In this document: positions 3,011 to 29,796 of the stretch, in pieces | Position numbering within the stretch: the stretch's first letter is position 1 | Layout of the letters: every line of letters begins with the position of its first letter | Assembly (NCBI GenBank): GCA_017517305.1 | Contig: JAFWZV010000001.1 | Span: forward strand, 1 to 64,000 | Direction: 5' to 3' | DNA length: 64,000 bases | Origin: Lachnospiraceae bacterium | Lineage (GTDB): Bacteria; Bacillota; Clostridia; Lachnospirales; Lachnospiraceae | Made by a program: the position numbers and the translations under genes | The notes under the pieces: model-generated | What the model was told of the DNA's origin: nothing | Seen by the model: only the letters and a program-made list of their open reading frames with translations | Databases searched by the model: none

Positions 3011-3042
3011 GCTTGAGATGAAATGATAATATAATAAATACA

Positions 3043-3071
3043 TTGACACGATAAGATATTTGATATACTAT
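3043..3071 (+). promoter_or_regulatory. promoter of antisense RNA, cassette 1
   Basis: TTGACA at 3043-3048, a 17-base spacer and TACTAT at 3066-3071 form a sigma-A-type promoter. Nothing codes downstream before the hairpin at 3112-3145, so the expected product is an RNA of roughly 70 bases. Confidence 0.6.
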
Positions 3072-3077
3072 GATAAT

Positions 3078-3150
3078 AACGGAAAGGTAGAGAATTTCCA
3101 TAGGCTAAACGAAACGCCTAGAGAGGTGCGACTCTCTAGGCGTTTCTTGC
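3078..3150 (+). ncRNA. putative antisense RNA antitoxin, cassette 1
   Basis: Predicted short RNA from the promoter at 3043-3071 to the hairpin at 3112-3145. It contains TCCATAGGCT (3097-3106), which is repeated exactly at 3269-3278 over the start codon of the minus-strand peptide gene. The RNA can therefore pair with the peptide mRNA both at the terminator and at the start site, as RNA II does in the pAD1 par/fst system. Transcription is inferred. Confidence 0.55.
3112..3145. terminator. shared bidirectional terminator hairpin, cassette 1
   Basis: Perfect 14-bp inverted repeat (3112-3125 with 3132-3145, AAACGCCTAGAGAG) around a 6-base loop, with T-rich sequence on both sides. It ends the + strand short RNA and the minus-strand peptide transcript. 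The same hairpin recurs at 9546-9579 and 11676-11711. Confidence 0.75.
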
Positions 3151-3186
3151 TCTTAAAGCGAGCTACTCTTTGTGGGTTGTTGCCGT

Positions 3187-3273
3187 CTACTTATCTCCAT
3201 CCAGCCACTTGCTTATGTAGTATGCGACTACACTTGCCACAACGGAGATAACGAAAGTAGAGAAAAAATCCAT
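3187..3273 (-). CDS. 28-aa hydrophobic peptide, type I toxin-like, cassette 1
   Basis: 28 codons from ATG (3273-3271) to TAG (3187). The peptide has one hydrophobic helix (STFVISVVASVVAYYI) and a polar tail KWLDGDK, the plan of Fst/Ldr-type membrane toxins. GGAGG stands 8 bases upstream of the ATG. A near-identical gene is at 11752-11838, and both share a leader (GCTGTCGACTC...TAGCGTAAAGCGA). It converges on the short + strand RNA through the hairpin at 3112-3145. Toxicity is inferred from layout, not shown. Confidence 0.65.
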   Translation of the reverse strand: MDFFSTFVISVVASVVAYYISKWLDGDK

Positions 3274-3349
3274 AGGCTTCACCTCCTCTCGCTTTACGCT
3301 AGAAAGAGTCGACAGCCTATATAAAAACAGATAAATATAAAATGTATAT

Positions 3350-3485
3350 TTATGAGTTATCTGGATGTTTGCTTTTCTCAATAAGTCTAATTTCAAGTTC
3401 CATATCAACGGCATTTGCCAGTTTTGTAAGTACATCTATAGTTGGCATATTTCACTTAGCTTCAATTCGAATAATATTAATCCAT
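3350..3485 (-). pseudogene. decayed XRE regulator, cassette 1
   Basis: The minus strand encodes a broken copy of the regulator at 9597-9881. The tail NMPTIDVLTKLANAVDMELE lines up with NMPSIDILTKLANAVDMELE of the intact gene. The codon for Arg in EAKRNM is now TGA (3454-3452), the region encoding most of the helix-turn-helix is deleted, and the surviving start codon is out of frame. A TAA at 3352-3350 ends it. Confidence 0.8.
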
Positions 3486-3641
3486 AGCACACCTCCCTAA
3501 ATACAAATAATACGTATCAATTATAATGCGATGTCGTCAGAAAGTAAACGAGTATTTCGCTTTTAATTTATGATTGTAAGAAGTTACAATAATGTGGTAG
3601 GATAACTTTATATAAGAAATAAGCTTGCGAGGAGACACAAG

Positions 3642-9462: not shown

Positions 9463-9476
9463 AATGCAAATTTATA

Positions 9477-9505
9477 TTGACATTATAATCAAATCGATAT
9501 AGTAC
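9477..9505 (+). promoter_or_regulatory. promoter of antisense RNA, cassette 2
   Basis: TTGACA at 9477-9482 with a weak TAGTAC box 17 bases later (TACAAT at 9503-9508 is an alternative with a 20-base spacer). The surrounding sequence TTGACATTATAAT...AAATCGATATA is shared with the cassette 3 promoter at 11608. Confidence 0.5.
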
Positions 9506-9511
9506 AATTGT

Positions 9512-9585
9512 AACACAATGCTGTGAAAACTCAATGAGTTAAACGAAACGCCTAGAGAACTGCGACTCTCTAGGCGTTTCTCGTT
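9512..9585 (+). ncRNA. putative orphan antisense RNA, cassette 2
   Basis: Same layout as the short RNAs of cassettes 1 and 3. It carries CTCAATGAG (9530-9538) where cassette 3 has CCCAATGGG, and ends in the shared hairpin. No peptide gene accompanies it here, so its pairing partner, if any, lies outside this locus or is the tail of the XRE mRNA. Expression is inferred. Confidence 0.4.
9546..9579. terminator. shared terminator hairpin, cassette 2
   Basis: 13-bp inverted repeat (9546-9558 with 9567-9579), the same CCTAGAGA/TCTCTAGG core as cassettes 1 and 3. It lies 17 bases beyond the stop of the minus-strand XRE gene and can end both convergent transcripts. Confidence 0.7.
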
Positions 9586-9596
9586 CTTGAAGTGAA

Positions 9597-9881
9597 CTAT
9601 TCTTTGTTATTTCCTTTTTTCTTTTCAACGAGTTTAACTTCCAGTTCCATATCAACAGCATTTGCCAGCTTTGTAAGTATATCTATGCTAGGCATATTTC
9701 TCTTTGCTTCGATTCGAACGATGTTGGTTCTGGCGATACCTGTAAGATTGGCAATCTTTTCCTGTGACAAGCCCTTAGCTTTTCTGATTGCTATGTATTG
9801 GTCGATAATCCCATTTTTAATTCTTGTTTTCTCGGTTTCGATAAATGCTTCGTATTCTTCGGTTTTGTAAATGTAATCCAT
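9597..9881 (-). CDS. XRE-family regulator (HigA-like), cassette 2
   Basis: 94 aa on the minus strand. The helix-turn-helix spans about residues 28-80 (AIRKAKGLSQEKIANLTGIARTNIVRIEAKRNMPS); the acidic N-terminus (YIYKTEEYEAFIETEK) and basic tail resemble antitoxin-type XRE proteins. A GGGAGGGG ribosome site precedes ATG. No toxin ORF adjoins it. A decayed copy lies at 3350-3485 upstream of the cassette 1 peptide gene. It likely represses its own promoter (TATTATAAT region, 9905-9935), which is inference. Confidence 0.85.
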   Translation of the reverse strand: MDYIYKTEEYEAFIETEKTRIKNGIIDQYIAIRKAKGLSQEKIANLTGIARTNIVRIEAKRNMPSIDILTKLANAVDMELEVKLVEKKKGNNKE

Positions 9882-9899
9882 AATAACCCCTCCCTGTAT

Positions 9900-10020
9900 A
9901 AAAACTGATACGGATAAATTATAATACTATTAGTGATAAAAGTAAATATGTTGGGCGTAGAAATAAAAAATAATGAAAAAGCTAGTAGAATAGAGTATAA
10001 TGTTGGAGATAAGGGGGAGA
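9900..10020. repeat. cassette flank shared with 11950-12065
   Basis: The stretch beginning GATACGGATAAATTATAAT (near 9910) recurs at about 11960 and in degenerate form near 3512. It continues with similar sequence to GAGTATAAT. In cassette 2 this is the upstream region of the XRE gene; in cassette 3 it survives without the XRE gene. This shows that the cassettes are diverged copies of one segment. Confidence 0.6.
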
Positions 10021-10746: not shown

Positions 10747-11511
10747 ATGTTAGGAATATATTTTAGTGGAACAGGCAATTCAAGATATGCATTAGAGGTG
10801 TTTCTTAAGGAATACAAGGAAGATTCACCTATTTATGGGGTAGAGGATAAAAAACTTGTGGAAGAGTTAAGTAAGCATGATGAGATAGTGTTTAGCTATC
10901 CAGTGCAGTATAGTGATGTTCCTATGATTTTGAGAGATTTTATACATAATAATTCAAAGCTGTGGCAGGGGAAGAGAATCTTTGTTATAGCTACAATGGC
11001 TATGTTCAGCGGTGATGGCGCAGGGGTATTAGGTCGCTTGCTTAAAAAATATGGTGCCCAGATCACTGGTGGTCTGCATCTTATAATGCCTGACAGTATT
11101 GCTGACGAGAAGGTGTTAAAGCGCTCTTACGAGAAAAACTGGCAGCTTGTGGCAAAGGCTAAAACTAAGATAGTAAAAGCAGTAGCTGATATAAAAGTAG
11201 GCCGATATCCTAAAGAAGGCTTAGGTGCATTTTCGCGATTGGCAGGCTTTATAAGTCAGAGATTATGGTTTGGTCATAGAACTAAGGAATATAGCAATAA
11301 ACTAAAGATAGATACGGACAAATGTATTGGCTGCTCAAAATGTGTAAAGCTATGCCCCACAGAAAATATTGCAATGGAAGGTAAAAAGGCCAAGGCTGGC
11401 GACAGATGTACAGTGTGCTACAGATGTGTAAATGCCTGTCCTGTACAAGCTATAACCCTGCTTGGCAAAAAGGTTGTTGAACAGACTAACATAGAGAAGT
11501 ATGTGAAGTAA
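10747..11511 (+). CDS. EFR1-type flavodoxin-ferredoxin fusion
   Basis: 254 aa. N-terminal flavodoxin-like domain with FMN loop YFSGTGNSRYAL (residues 5-16) and FSYPVQYSDVP. C-terminal two-cluster ferredoxin domain (CIGCSKCVKLCP and CTVCYRCVNACP, near residues 196-237). This EFR1 architecture is common in Clostridia and Bacteroidales and carries electrons in the cytosol. AAAGGA lies 7 bases before ATG. Its electron partner is unknown. Confidence 0.92.
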   Translation: MLGIYFSGTGNSRYALEVFLKEYKEDSPIYGVEDKKLVEELSKHDEIVFSYPVQYSDVPMILRDFIHNNSKLWQGKRIFVIATMAMFSGDGAGVLGRLLKKYGAQITGGLHLIMPDSIADEKVLKRSYEKNWQLVAKAKTKIVKAVADIKVGRYPKEGLGAFSRLAGFISQRLWFGHRTKEYSNKLKIDTDKCIGCSKCVKLCPTENIAMEGKKAKAGDRCTVCYRCVNACPVQAITLLGKKVVEQTNIEKYVK

Positions 11512-11514
11512 ACA

Positions 11515-11592
11515 AAGAATTTGTGTAAACAGGCGAAGCTGGCTGATATAGATTATTTGCCAAAAAACAAGAAAAATTGTATTGACGAATAA
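11515..11592 (+). pseudogene. 3' remnant of a DUF5131 (Gp37-like) gene
   Basis: Directly after the EFR1 stop the + strand reads KNLCKQAKLADIDYLP to a TAA at 11592. This repeats, with a few base changes, the last ~16 residues of the intact gene at 13989-14729 (KDLCKQAKLADIDYLP). Nothing upstream of the match survives, so it is a leftover of a second copy. Confidence 0.75.
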
Positions 11593-11607: not shown

Positions 11608-11636
11608 TTGACATTATAATTAAATCGATATATTAT
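11608..11636 (+). promoter_or_regulatory. promoter of antisense RNA, cassette 3
   Basis: TTGACA (11608-11613), 17-base spacer, TATTAT (11631-11636): the best of the three cassette promoters. Only non-coding sequence lies between it and the hairpin at 11676-11711. Confidence 0.7.
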
Positions 11637-11642
11637 GATAGT

Positions 11643-11716
11643 AACAAAATGCTGTAAATACCCAATGGGTTATACGAAAAGCCTAGAGAGGTGCCACTCT
11701 CTAGGCTTTTCTCGTT
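11643..11716 (+). ncRNA. putative antisense RNA antitoxin, cassette 3
   Basis: Predicted ~70-base RNA ending in the shared hairpin. It contains CCCAATGG (11661-11668), repeated at 11834-11841 over the TTG start codon of the minus-strand peptide gene. The matched segment differs from cassette 1 (TCCATAGGCT), so each RNA fits its own peptide mRNA. Expression is inferred. Confidence 0.55.
11676..11711. terminator. shared terminator hairpin, cassette 3
   Basis: 15-bp inverted repeat (11676-11690 with 11697-11711). Relative to cassette 1 the stem pair C-G near its base is A-T here on both arms (AAACGCC/GGCGTTT versus AAAAGCC/GGCTTTT). This compensatory change keeps the stem intact. Confidence 0.75.
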
Positions 11717-11751
11717 CTTAAAGTGAACTACTCTTTGTAGGCTGTTGCTGT

Positions 11752-11838
11752 CTACTTATCTCTATCCAGCCACTTGCATATGTAGTATGAGACTACGCCT
11801 GCCATAACAGAGATAATAAATGCTGTAATTATTCCCAA
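11752..11838 (-). CDS. 28-aa hydrophobic peptide, type I toxin-like, cassette 3
   Basis: 28 codons starting at TTG (11838-11836), 9 bases after GGAGG, ending TAG at 11752. The peptide (MGIITAFIISVMAGVVSYYI then CKWLDRDK) has the same length, helix position and tail as the cassette 1 peptide. The leader GCTGTCGACTCCATCTAGCG is also shared. It converges on the + strand RNA at 11643-11716. Likely membrane-acting if translated. Too short for usual gene callers; no XRE gene remains here. Confidence 0.65.
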   Translation of the reverse strand: MGIITAFIISVMAGVVSYYICKWLDRDK

Positions 11839-11949
11839 TGGACTTCACCTCCCTTCGCTTTACGCTAGATGGAGTCGACAGCCTATATTAACTAACAAAT
11901 TGTGTGTTCTTTGATTCTGGAAAAGAAATCAATAACATACATACATCTG

Positions 11950-12085
11950 TATCAAATTAGATACGGATAAATTATAATACTGATAGTTGCAAAAGTAAAT
12001 ATATATGATTGGATAAAAATGATGAAAAATGCTGTGGAATTGAGTATAATTGTGTTAGTGATGTAAATGCAATCGCAAGAGGGGG
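11950..12085. repeat. cassette flank and repeated 5' leader
   Basis: Contains the second copy of the GATACGGATAAATTATAAT flank, then a leader (12052-12085, GTGTTAGTGATGTAAA... ending AATCGCAAGAGGGGG) that recurs at 15178-15212 with 2 differences in 34 bases, before an unrelated gene. The G-run serves as ribosome binding site in both places. Confidence 0.6.
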
Positions 12086-13988: not shown

Positions 13989-14729
13989 ATGGCCATGTGG
14001 AATCCTTGGCGAGGCTGTAAAAAATGTAGTGATGGATGTCTGCATTGCTACATACACAAAGGTGATGCAAAACGAGGTGTCAACACCAATGATATTGCGA
14101 AAACTAAAGATTTTTACAAGCCTATAGATAAATTGAAAAATGGTAATTACAAGATGAAACCAGGATTGGTTTATCTTGGCTTTTCTACGGACTTTCTAAT
14201 TGAGGAAGCGGATGAGTGGCGCAAGGAGTGCTGGTCTATGATCAGGGAAAGACAGGATTGTACCTTTTTATTCCTAACAAAGCGCATTGAACGATTTATG
14301 GATTGTATCCCAGAGGATTGGGGTGATGGCTATGATAATGTGGTTGTGTGCTGCACCATTGAGAATCAAAAAAATGCAGATAAAAAGTTATCGGTGTTTG
14401 CAACACTACCTATCAAGCACAAATGCATTACAGTTCAGCCTTTGCTTGAAAAGGTGGATATGGAAAAGTATATGGATGATATAGAACTGGTTGTGGTTGG
14501 TGGTGAGTCAGATTATAACGCTCGCCCACTTGACTATGACTGGGTGTTAGATATTAGAGAGCAGTGCATAAAAAAGGACGTTCAATTTGAATTTAGACAA
14601 TGCGGAACACATTTTATAAAAGATGGTAAAAGGTATAAATTGCAAACAAAAGATTTGTGTAAACAGGCGAAACTGGCTGATATAGATTACTTGCCGGTAG
14701 GGAGAAATAATGAACATAAAACTAATTAG
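13989..14729 (+). CDS. DUF5131 (phage Gp37/Gp68-like) radical-SAM-type protein
   Basis: 246 aa. N-terminal WNPWRGCKKCSDGCLHCY provides a cysteine cluster typical of DUF5131 proteins. The family is found in phages and bacteria and is predicted to be related to radical SAM enzymes; its function is unknown. Further conserved pieces are FLFLTKRIERF and VVGGESDYNARP. The last 20 bases overlap the next acetyltransferase, indicating coupled translation. A fragment of a second copy sits at 11515-11592. Confidence 0.85.
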   Translation: MAMWNPWRGCKKCSDGCLHCYIHKGDAKRGVNTNDIAKTKDFYKPIDKLKNGNYKMKPGLVYLGFSTDFLIEEADEWRKECWSMIRERQDCTFLFLTKRIERFMDCIPEDWGDGYDNVVVCCTIENQKNADKKLSVFATLPIKHKCITVQPLLEKVDMEKYMDDIELVVVGGESDYNARPLDYDWVLDIREQCIKKDVQFEFRQCGTHFIKDGKRYKLQTKDLCKQAKLADIDYLPVGRNNEHKTN

Positions 14730-24078: not shown

Positions 24079-24169
24079 ATTCTGTTGGCTACGATTATAT
24101 GGGCATATATAAAATTAATCATATATGTTGCCCGGAAAATTATGTGTTATATGTTCCAAACTCATGAAA

Positions 24170-24385
24170 TCCGGGCAGTGGAGGTAAGAAAAATCCTATA
24201 TGCCCGCCAAAACAAAAATCCAGAGAGACAACCAGGAAAATTCGGGCAGTAGAGGTAAGAAAAATCCTATGTGCCCGCCAAAACAAAAATCCAGAGAGAC
24301 AACCAGGAAAATCCGGGCAGTGGAGGTAAGAAAAATCCTATATGCCCACCAAAACAAAAAATCACAAAAACAACCCTACGTATAG
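24170..24385. repeat. three tandem 71-bp repeats
   Basis: A 71-bp unit starts at about 24171, 24242 and 24313; the first two copies are almost identical and the third diverges at its end. Each unit contains CGGGCAG...GGTAAGAAAAATCCTA...TGCCC, giving an internal GGGCA/TGCCC pair. A lone GCCCGGAAAA lies just upstream (24130). No coding signal and no spacers. Confidence 0.85.
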
Positions 24386-28147: not shown

Positions 28148-28969
28148 ATGGATAACAATCAAAACAACGGACAGCCTATAGAGGGTCAGGGCTTTGTACA
28201 GCCACAGATGCAACAGTATGGACAGTCACAGCAGGGCTTTGAGCAACCACAGATGCAACAACAGTATGGACAGCCACAGCAGTATCAGCAGATGCAACAA
28301 CCATATGGACAGCCACAGCAATATCAGCAGATGCAGCAACCATACGGACAGCCACAGCAGTATCAGCAGATGCAGCAACCATACGGACAGCCACAGCAGT
28401 ATCAGCAGATGCAGCAACCATACGGACAGCCACAGCAACACCAGCAATATCAGCAGCCATATGGACAGCCACAGATGCAGGTGGGTCCTAAGAAGCCGGT
28501 TAATAAGAAGGCTATTGCCATTGTTGCTTCAGTTTTAGTTGTAGCTATCTTGGCTATAGTATTAGTTCCGAAACTATTTAAAGATAAGCAGAAAACACCA
28601 TTTGATGGTCTTAAGATGGGAATGTCTATGCAGGAGGTTGCTGTAGCACTAGATATTGAACCTGAATTTGATGAAAGCACTTGGTATAAGAGAGATGTGG
28701 AGGCCTTTGGAGCAGTAGGAAGACTTCAGATAATATTTAATTATGATGATGAGTTTGATCATGTTAACTGGTATGTTGATAGAGAAGATTGCTCTAGTTC
28801 AAAGGCTTATGACAAAGCTATTGAAGAAATCAAGGATTATTATACTGATAAGTATGGTGAGCCAGAATATGATCCTGAAGAGAATGAATACAACTGGGAA
28901 TTATCTATGGGTCTTGAATATGAGTTAGAGATTCAGGATGAGGATGAATTTGTACTAAGATATAGATAA
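28148..28969 (+). CDS. Gln-rich repeat membrane protein (paralogue A)
   Basis: 273 aa. Residues ~10-112 are Gln/Pro/Tyr-rich, built from 13-residue repeats (GQPQQYQQMQQPY) encoded by five 39-bp tandem units at 28271-28465. A basic stretch KKPVNKK, one membrane helix (near 126-145) and a ~125-residue C-terminal domain follow (FDHVNWYVDREDCSS, DYYTDKYGEPE, FVLRYR). The helix orientation (positive side first) puts the repeats in the cytosol and the C-terminal domain outside. The C-terminal domain is shared with the next gene; function unknown. Confidence 0.8.
   Translation: MDNNQNNGQPIEGQGFVQPQMQQYGQSQQGFEQPQMQQQYGQPQQYQQMQQPYGQPQQYQQMQQPYGQPQQYQQMQQPYGQPQQYQQMQQPYGQPQQHQQYQQPYGQPQMQVGPKKPVNKKAIAIVASVLVVAILAIVLVPKLFKDKQKTPFDGLKMGMSMQEVAVALDIEPEFDESTWYKRDVEAFGAVGRLQIIFNYDDEFDHVNWYVDREDCSSSKAYDKAIEEIKDYYTDKYGEPEYDPEENEYNWELSMGLEYELEIQDEDEFVLRYR
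28271..28465 (+). repeat. five 39-bp tandem repeats within a gene
   Basis: Units begin at 28271, 28310, 28349, 28388 and 28427; the middle three are nearly identical, the last is shuffled. In-frame, encoding 13 residues each, so copy number can change without breaking the gene. Confidence 0.9.
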
Positions 28970-28986
28970 CGAAGGAAAAATATAAT

Positions 28987-29796
28987 ATGCAACCTATATA
29001 TGATCAAAATCAAATGAATTATGCACAGCAAACCTATGATCAAAGTCAAATGAATTATGCACAGCAAACCTATGACCAAAGTCAAATGAATTATGGGCAG
29101 CAAGCCTATGACCAAAGTCAAATGAATTATGGGCAGCAAACCTATGGCCAAAGTCAGATGAATTACGTGCATCAAACCAATGACCAAAGTCAAATGAATT
29201 ACACACAATATTCATATGATCAAAATCAAATGAATTATACACAATCAATGTATAATCAAAGCCAGGTGAATTATATGCCATCGCAGCCACAGGCAGACAG
29301 CAATAAGAATAAACATATAAAAAATATATGCTTGATAGTTGTGGCAGTGATATTTATAGCTCTACTTGCAAGTATCTTTATACCTATGTTGTTTAAGTCC
29401 AAGGATCCATTTGCAAATATTAATCCAGGGGATTCCTTAGAGAAAACAATGAAGCGATATGACTTTACTGAAGATGATATAAGTCATAATATGGTGAGTA
29501 TGGATTTGGAGGGCTTTGGAATTGTTGGTAGCGCACAAATATGTTTGAGTAAGGATAGGCTGGACCATGTTAATTGGTATGTGCGTGAGGATGATTGTAA
29601 GGATAGAGATCATTATTATGATGTGTTAGAAGAAGTTAAGGATTATTACACAGATGAGTATGGTGCTCCTGAGGATGTTGAAGAACAGGGCTCCGACGAG
29701 AAATTAGTATGGCGAAGTGGACCTAATTCAGAGATTGCTTTAGCAACCCACGGTAATAAGTTTATACTTAGATATAGAAAAATATCGAAATATTAA
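28987..29796 (+). CDS. Gln/Asn-rich repeat membrane protein (paralogue B)
   Basis: 269 aa. Residues ~5-100 consist of about eight 12-residue repeats (QSQMNYAQQTYD). One membrane helix (near residues 112-133) and a C-terminal domain homologous to paralogue A (DHVNWYVREDDC, DYYTDEYGAPE, FILRYRK) follow. The gene starts 17 bases after paralogue A, so both are probably made together. The repeats differ in sequence from A but have the same composition and place. Function unknown. Confidence 0.8.
   Translation: MQPIYDQNQMNYAQQTYDQSQMNYAQQTYDQSQMNYGQQAYDQSQMNYGQQTYGQSQMNYVHQTNDQSQMNYTQYSYDQNQMNYTQSMYNQSQVNYMPSQPQADSNKNKHIKNICLIVVAVIFIALLASIFIPMLFKSKDPFANINPGDSLEKTMKRYDFTEDDISHNMVSMDLEGFGIVGSAQICLSKDRLDHVNWYVREDDCKDRDHYYDVLEEVKDYYTDEYGAPEDVEEQGSDEKLVWRSGPNSEIALATHGNKFILRYRKISKY
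29005..29290 (+). repeat. about eight 36-bp tandem repeats within a gene
   Basis: Period 36 from 29005 (units at 29005, 29041, 29077, 29113, 29149, 29185, 29221, 29257), diverging toward the 3' end; each encodes 12 residues. Confidence 0.9.

Follow-up and report, generated by a model that had tools for sequence, protein, structure and literature searches.

Cassette 3, the last of three related copies in the window (the whole 64-kb stretch of DNA analysed; cassette 1 lies at 3042-3325 and cassette 2 at about 9472-9607), is most probably a chromosomal type I toxin-antitoxin module of the par/Fst kind, a reading to which the sequence comparisons below lead us to give a probability of roughly 0.88. 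A leftward mRNA would encode a membrane peptide of 28 residues, presumably toxic when made, and a convergent antisense transcript some 75 nt long, predicted to have its terminator in common with the toxin mRNA, would most likely keep the toxin-like gene switched off. Because the terminator is common, the two RNAs would first touch at complementary terminator loops; the antisense segment immediately before the terminator, which is complementary to the start codon plus its preceding spacer, would then bind the start region of the mRNA and block ribosomes. Aligned sequences show the overall layout, the repeat that covers the start codon, and locus-specific variation by which each RNA fits its own mRNA; variation of the repeat between loci should prevent cross-regulation of cassettes 1 and 3, despite their alike terminators.

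An earlier, sequence-only reading of the locus had proposed this layout (promoter, short RNA, hairpin, and a minus-strand peptide gene of 28 codons with a TTG start), and its description proved exact to the base. The segment that it placed in both partners, CCCAATGG, is present at both positions, the second over the TTG, and the different segment that it reported for cassette 1 is there as a 10-mer, TCCATAGGCT, where cassette 3 has CCCAATGG. The features of the three cassettes are as follows.

11608-11636, + strand: promoter of the antisense RNA, TTGACA-17-TATTAT, 11 of 12 consensus matches (TTGACA 11608-11613, spacer 17 nt, TATTAT 11631-11636, read directly)
11643-11716, + strand: predicted antisense RNA of about 74-75 nt, with ends placed 7 nt past the -10 box and at the U-run
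11660-11670, + strand: anti-start hairpin ACCC-AAT-GGGT of the antisense RNA, from the predicted fold
11661-11668, + strand: copy of the repeat CCCAATGG in the antisense RNA, from sequence
11676-11711, both strands: common bidirectional intrinsic terminator with a 15-bp stem
11752-11838, - strand: toxin-like membrane peptide of 28 aa, TTG start at 11836-11838, from the ORF and the family profile
11834-11841, - strand: copy of the repeat CCCAATGG in the toxin mRNA, spanning the TTG start, from sequence
11839-11884, - strand: putative leader of the toxin mRNA, from sequence
11846-11853, - strand: strong Shine-Dalgarno sequence, GGGAGGTG
11971-11999, - strand: promoter-like TTTACT-17-TATAAT upstream of the toxin gene, 10 of 12 matches
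3043-3071, + strand: promoter of the cassette 1 antisense RNA, TTGACA-17-TACTAT, from sequence
3097-3106, + strand: copy of the cassette 1 repeat TCCATAGGCT in the antisense RNA, from sequence
3187-3273, - strand: toxin-like peptide of cassette 1, 28 aa, ATG start, from the ORF and the family profile
3269-3278, - strand: copy of the cassette 1 repeat TCCATAGGCT over the ATG start, from sequence
9477-9583, + strand: antisense RNA and terminator of cassette 2, lacking a toxin, with hairpin AACTC-AAT-GAGTT
9597-9881, - strand: Xre/HTH_3 regulator gene in place of the cassette 2 toxin, from a domain match

Relatives of the peptide were gathered by a DNA search of 150 genomes of the family, 23 of which gave a match, and a profile built from 17 peptides then matched 123 of 397 sampled genomes of the family to which the window genome belongs (Lachnospiraceae). 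A scan of genome contigs confirmed at least 547 relatives, and a scan of viral contigs gave 34; among the best 80 of those at least 547, 27 are titled as Lachnospiraceae and others under genera such as Blautia, Butyrivibrio and Roseburia. From 221 loci we retained 175 toxin genes (Shine-Dalgarno score of at least 4, no more than 50 aa, enough flank, duplicates removed), the starts of which were picked by the Shine-Dalgarno sequence, blind to the repeat. A hairpin finder gave a terminator for all 175, not each of them checked by eye (that of locus L087 looks wrong), and removal of loci at least 80% alike around the start left 137 representatives.

In this set the start region (-14 to +11) was scored for its match to a 60-nt window opening 4 nt short of the end of the terminator stem. 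Cognate partners had a mean score of 8.89, compared with 5.11 for non-cognate partners; 20,000 permutations gave a mean of 5.13 (sd 0.089, maximum 5.50), which places the cognate value at a z of 42.2. At 87 loci the cognate RNA was the best or joint best of all 137, against a naive expectation of about one, somewhat more with ties. Control windows at the same loci gave z 6.3 in mid-coding sequence and z 0.1 in the 5' UTR, so that most of the matching effect belongs to the start region; the coding-window value, being above zero, counts against the toxin-antitoxin reading. Resolved by position, the match peaks from -2 to +2 (0.71-0.77, versus 0.25-0.36 for non-cognate partners) and is no better than in non-cognate pairs by about -10 and +6. 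This terminator-anchored test superseded a first repeat test with an unanchored downstream window (106 of 111 toxins), in which the scores were 7.75 versus 5.73 and the cognate RNA was strictly best at 18 of 106 loci; in the matrix from those 106 loci, four other RNAs score at least as high as its own with the cassette 3 start, in a set that includes the near-identical copy from the relative SIG302.

Paralogues and close relatives gave the same preference. Among 31 genomes or contigs bearing at least two cassettes (68 cassettes in all), the cognate RNA won 83 of 86 comparisons, with one tie and two against, both of the latter in G118, and predicted duplex energies averaged -28.6 kcal/mol for cognate and -12.5 kcal/mol for non-cognate pairs. 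In comparison with the relative whose toxin core is closest (identity averaging 0.86), it won at 118 of 137 loci, with five ties and 14 against. Single changes can be followed in near-identical pairs: a change of start from ATG to GTG between L149 and L151 is mirrored in the antisense RNA, as are one change of one between L176 and L183, two of two between L177 and L216, and eight of nine between L063 and L051; the counts are none of one for L069 and L066, none of three for L067 and L125, and none of four for L092 and L011. Over 39 close pairs, which overlap, 98 of the 195 positions that differ have the change mirrored in both partners, a count made without a shuffle control. Weak matches (score below 7) occur at 26 of the 137 loci, and these, together with the mirroring of only 98 of 195 positions, count against the toxin-antitoxin reading.

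The proposal that both segments had changed together, each RNA matching its own mRNA, is thus upheld in the representative set, among paralogues and against nearest relatives. Independent variation of the two segments, looked for by aligning many copies, was not found overall, within the limits set by the weak matches and unmirrored positions just given. The same proposal had been offered as strong internal evidence for pairing. A lone 8-bp repeat between short AT-rich windows is weak evidence, and it is the family-wide tests that place the cassette 3 repeat beyond chance.

Predicted pairing energies within and between cassettes, a check that the sequence-only reading had suggested, agree with these results for cassettes 1 and 3, whose own pairs are stronger than the crosses. 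Duplexes of the 5' part of the antisense RNA with the start regions reached -25.8 kcal/mol for cassette 1 and -16.8 kcal/mol for cassette 3 with their own partners, versus -12.2 kcal/mol for the cassette 1 RNA with the cassette 3 start and -12.5 kcal/mol for the reverse; the modelled preference of cassette 3 for itself is real but modest. The cassette 2 RNA gave -6.6 kcal/mol with the cassette 1 start and -9.6 kcal/mol with that of cassette 3. Co-folding of whole RNAs, with approximate ends, yielded -43.5 and -34.3 for the own pairs of cassettes 1 and 3 and -16.0 and -14.8 for their crosses, and, for the orphan cassette 2 RNA, -11.8 with cassette 3 and -24.0 with cassette 1. The last value is stronger than the crosses between cassettes 1 and 3, so the orphan RNA might touch the cassette 1 mRNA, a point that counts against the toxin-antitoxin reading.

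The remaining architecture likewise recurs across the representative loci. A promoter scoring at least 9 lies within 125 nt beyond the terminator at 127 of 137 loci, compared with 0.228 of shuffles, and a stricter score of at least 10 is reached at 94 of 137, compared with 0.028. With a threshold of 8 and a distance of 15-80 nt before the terminator, a promoter can be placed at 131 of 137 loci (base-shuffled controls reach 8 in 0.62), giving predicted antisense RNAs with a median length of 79 nt at those 131. The terminator stem of cassette 3 has an A-rich left arm and a T-rich right arm and can therefore terminate in either direction; over the 137 loci, A and T counts at the two bases of the stem average 5.9 and 5.8 of 10. 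The predicted fold of the cassette 3 antisense RNA has an MFE of -31.6 (z -6.07), and the 22-nt stretch of its anti-start hairpin, taken alone, is without significance (z -0.67). An Rfam search of the 64-kb window returned no match at gathering scores.

The repeat segment directly precedes the terminator, and at many loci it is able to fold into a small hairpin whose loop holds the anti-start. Hairpin scores averaged 9.18, versus 7.12 in dinucleotide shuffles (z 7.6, n=111), and reached at least 10 in 0.45 of loci versus 0.15 of shuffles; strong anti-start hairpins occur at 50 of 111 loci with 41 different stems, related loci not being independent. These stems lend support to a rival view in which the antisense RNA simply requires a small palindromic hairpin, the repeat carrying no pairing code and the toxin start resembling it by chance or shared origin; the hairpins of cassettes 2 and 3, which differ by a compensating pair change (CTC/GAG versus CCC/GGG) that preserves the hairpin, speak for it as well, each 22-nt hairpin alone not being significant. 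We nevertheless consider this explanation very unlikely, since the toxin start regions have no hairpin excess (7.11, versus 7.12 for shuffled antisense windows) and yet match their own RNA at z 42, while inspection shows one stem arm partly outside the matched segment in some loci (L043, L050) and an anti-start hairpin is missing from the fold predicted for the cassette 1 RNA. Hairpin constraint and pairing code may also act together. That the repeats are kept alike by a functionless DNA process, such as short gene conversion or repeat duplication, strikes us as scarcely credible: conversion could indeed copy one segment onto the other, and some loci have tandem cassettes, but the likeness is centred on the start codon and spacer, fades to non-cognate values around -10 and +6, and is absent from the upstream 5' UTR window (z 0.1).

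Regulation of a toxin by an antisense RNA matched to its start codon, as we propose for cassette 3, has close published counterparts. Like par of pAD1 (Fst/RNA I/RNA II), the cassette has predicted convergent RNAs, a bidirectional terminator and direct repeats over the toxin start (PMC7472228). In par, the terminator loops make the first contact, and pairing then extends to the repeats, hiding the start codon and ribosome site; the plasmid RNA II protects against its own toxin RNA but gives no protection against the chromosomal one, presumably owing to their different repeats (PMC7472228). The pAD1 locus differs in having two repeats (DRa, DRb) and a U-turn loop, whereas the branch described here has one continuous repeat over the start, and Fst has PxxxG where the present peptides have mostly SxxxG or SxxxS. 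The U-turn motif (YUNR) of the pAD1 prototype was found in the toxin-RNA terminator loops of only 20 of 137 loci; as not all homologues have a U-turn (PMC7472228), we do not treat it as defining. Fst-Sm/srSm of Streptococcus mutans resembles cassette 3, as predicted, in its convergent antisense RNA of about 70 nt, repeats overlapping the start codon and common terminator, and differs in its AP...G motif, its two tandem repeats, and its tested toxicity and protection, cassette 3 being known from sequence (PMC3543317). Lpt of L. rhamnosus pairs a 29-aa toxin with a 74-nt antitoxin RNA through complementarity around the start codon, and the repeat region of Lpt homologues includes a short plasmid-specific stretch; in contrast to cassette 3, Lpt is plasmid-borne with a longer, 24-nt complementarity (PMC5608710), and its proline is needed for toxicity (PMC7472228). 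The type I systems of Clostridioides difficile (CD2517.1/RCd8 and others) share with the proposed module convergent overlap, a small membrane toxin and mostly cognate-only action, but their toxins, of 47-53 aa (34-35 in some), are said to be unlike known type I toxins (PMC6563280).

Co-variation of the kind drawn from two cassettes by the sequence-only reading is accordingly a known trait of par/Fst loci, confirmed here over many of them. Both the mechanism and locus-specific repeats are already published for par/Fst; what is new is the branch and the scale of the co-variation evidence. A bolteae case and an Fst-like one in C. asparagiforme are mentioned in PMC6563280, and both may be members of the branch. 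We found no description of the branch in the literature searched, outside which many subscription papers lie, and four 7-letter strings from the peptide core occur in none of the literature texts searched.

All 36 peptides aligned have an invariant K, W and D within a core made up of a hydrophobic stretch, K-W-L-D and a charged tail. The Fst/Ldr superfamily is described as having a tryptophan between the transmembrane helix and the charged end, with P/D/S/TxxxG in the majority (PMC7472228), and the present peptides carry that signature as a tryptophan between hydrophobic stretch and charged tail with S/T/A-x3-G/S. Residues -13 and -9 from the tryptophan, scored in 171 of 175 peptides, are S/G in 74, S/S in 60, A/G in 19, T/G in 10, S/N in six and two other combinations once each; the S/S, A/G and S/N peptides bend the published motif, and proline occurs at neither position in the 171 (the profile was itself built from S members). 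Curated models cover the family weakly: PF13955 matched two of 36 peptides (best E 0.032), PF13940 five (best E 0.035), NF033608 eight (best E 0.00047) and NF047374 24 (best E 0.00094). The cassette 3 peptide falls below every cut-off of PF13955, PF13940 and NF033608, scores 14 bits against a cut-off of 60 for NF047374, and reaches no Pfam or NCBIfam cut-off, and a search of its own genome with PF13955 returned nothing. Given such weak matches, membership in the Fst/Ldr superfamily is likely by sequence, not proven. The weak matches also lend something to the idea that the peptide is a leader peptide or membrane regulator under the same antisense RNA, as does the purely predicted nature of its toxicity; since it agrees in anatomy and locus with Fst-family loci tested in S. 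mutans and L. rhamnosus, we allow this idea a slim chance.

A search of solved structures with the toxin profile gave as its sole match an irrelevant transporter (E 5.7), which was dismissed. We likewise rejected a weak cassette-like match in another contig (C10), in which the frame is open over the 59 codons translated and which the toxin profile misses at E 0.01. Peptide relatives were also seen in contigs labelled Phascolarctobacterium, Acidaminococcaceae, Muribaculum and Gastranaerophilales (L074, L076, L081, L082, L087, L109, L135), reflecting either transfer or mis-binned contigs. Three loci (L102, L153, L066) carry at least three toxin cassettes in tandem within about 1-2 kb; in all nine of their cassettes analysed the cognate match was the best of the set.

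Most of the sequence tests made support cassette 3 as a working type I module. Its interest comes from how extensive the insulation evidence is and from the hairpin display, rather than from the mechanism. Earlier literature presumed that par/Fst paralogues are kept insulated by their variable repeats; this view now has quantitative support over 137 loci, in a peptide family that curated models cover weakly and that is nonetheless common (the 123 of 397 family genomes noted above), and the natural variants could be used to measure the smallest number of base changes that sets two antisense circuits apart. We advance as tentative the broader idea that a large Fst-like branch, centred on Lachnospiraceae, uses a displayed anti-start loop as an address, a few spacer bases beside the start codon forming a locus-specific code that prevents cross-talk. 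If true, it would constitute a natural library of mutually insulated RNA switches, with many similar modules per cell.

Transcription of the cassette 3 toxin gene is less readily accounted for. Among 103 loci the leader has a median of 39 nt, and a toxin promoter scoring at least 9 was found in 0.76, compared with 0.20 of shuffles. No good -35/-10 pair was found for the cassette 3 toxin (score 6.5), and that of cassette 1 scores 8, also poor; these poor promoters count against the toxin-antitoxin reading. The promoter-like sequence at 11971-11999 belongs to a class with five sites in the 601 bases scanned, versus 3.4 in shuffles, and resembles the region upstream of the cassette 2 HTH gene (repeat D9: 9894-9949 and 11947-12002); inherited from a lost HTH gene, it may serve the toxin. 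The 5' and 3' UTRs of the toxin mRNAs are complementary over the 137 loci (z 9.3), for which cassette 3 would need a longer-than-usual leader: pairing of its AGGCTGT (11878-11884) with ACAGCCT beyond the stop codon would require a transcript that begins further upstream than the leader length usual in relatives allows. In the predicted fold of the cassette 3 mRNA, GGGAGGTG is partly paired upstream (CUCC/GGAG); Shine-Dalgarno pairing across loci was 0.75, versus 0.66 in shuffles (n=135), a small effect.

The Xre/HTH_3 gene is complete next to cassette 2, survives as a remnant next to cassette 1 (3350-3500), and is represented beside cassette 3 by the promoter-like stretch alone (11947-12002), and thus seems once to have belonged to the repeated unit. 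As a toxin partner it had one weak phmmer match, on the opposite strand (L144), among the open frames within the fetched flanks of toxin-bearing loci. The -10 position of cassette 2 reads TAGTAC and looks decayed. No partner for its segment turned up in the genome with the toxin profile or with one start-site pattern, and cassette 2 is probably an orphan antitoxin RNA.

The relative SIG302 (L062) carries cassette 3 at the same place with an identical peptide. One of 291 bases differs in the cassette, compared with 64 of 765 in the left neighbouring gene (p 1.3e-8), and 51 of 291 differ in the aligned part of the right-hand gene. Low divergence extends to 12094 (two substitutions and a 4-base gap in 194), so that this conservation could stem from purifying selection or from recent transfer of the entire stretch. 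The near-identity of the cassette counts for the toxin-antitoxin reading, and its possible origin in transfer against it. To the left of cassette 3, positions 11510-11561 repeat (92%) a 52-base stretch at 14644-14695, the 3' end of the gene at 13989-14729; this repeat is also present in the same relative, and is perhaps a trace of the arrival of cassette 3. Elsewhere in the window, head-to-tail repeat arrays occupy 24167-24379, 28211-28513 and 28946-29305, with periods of 71, 39 and 36 bases.
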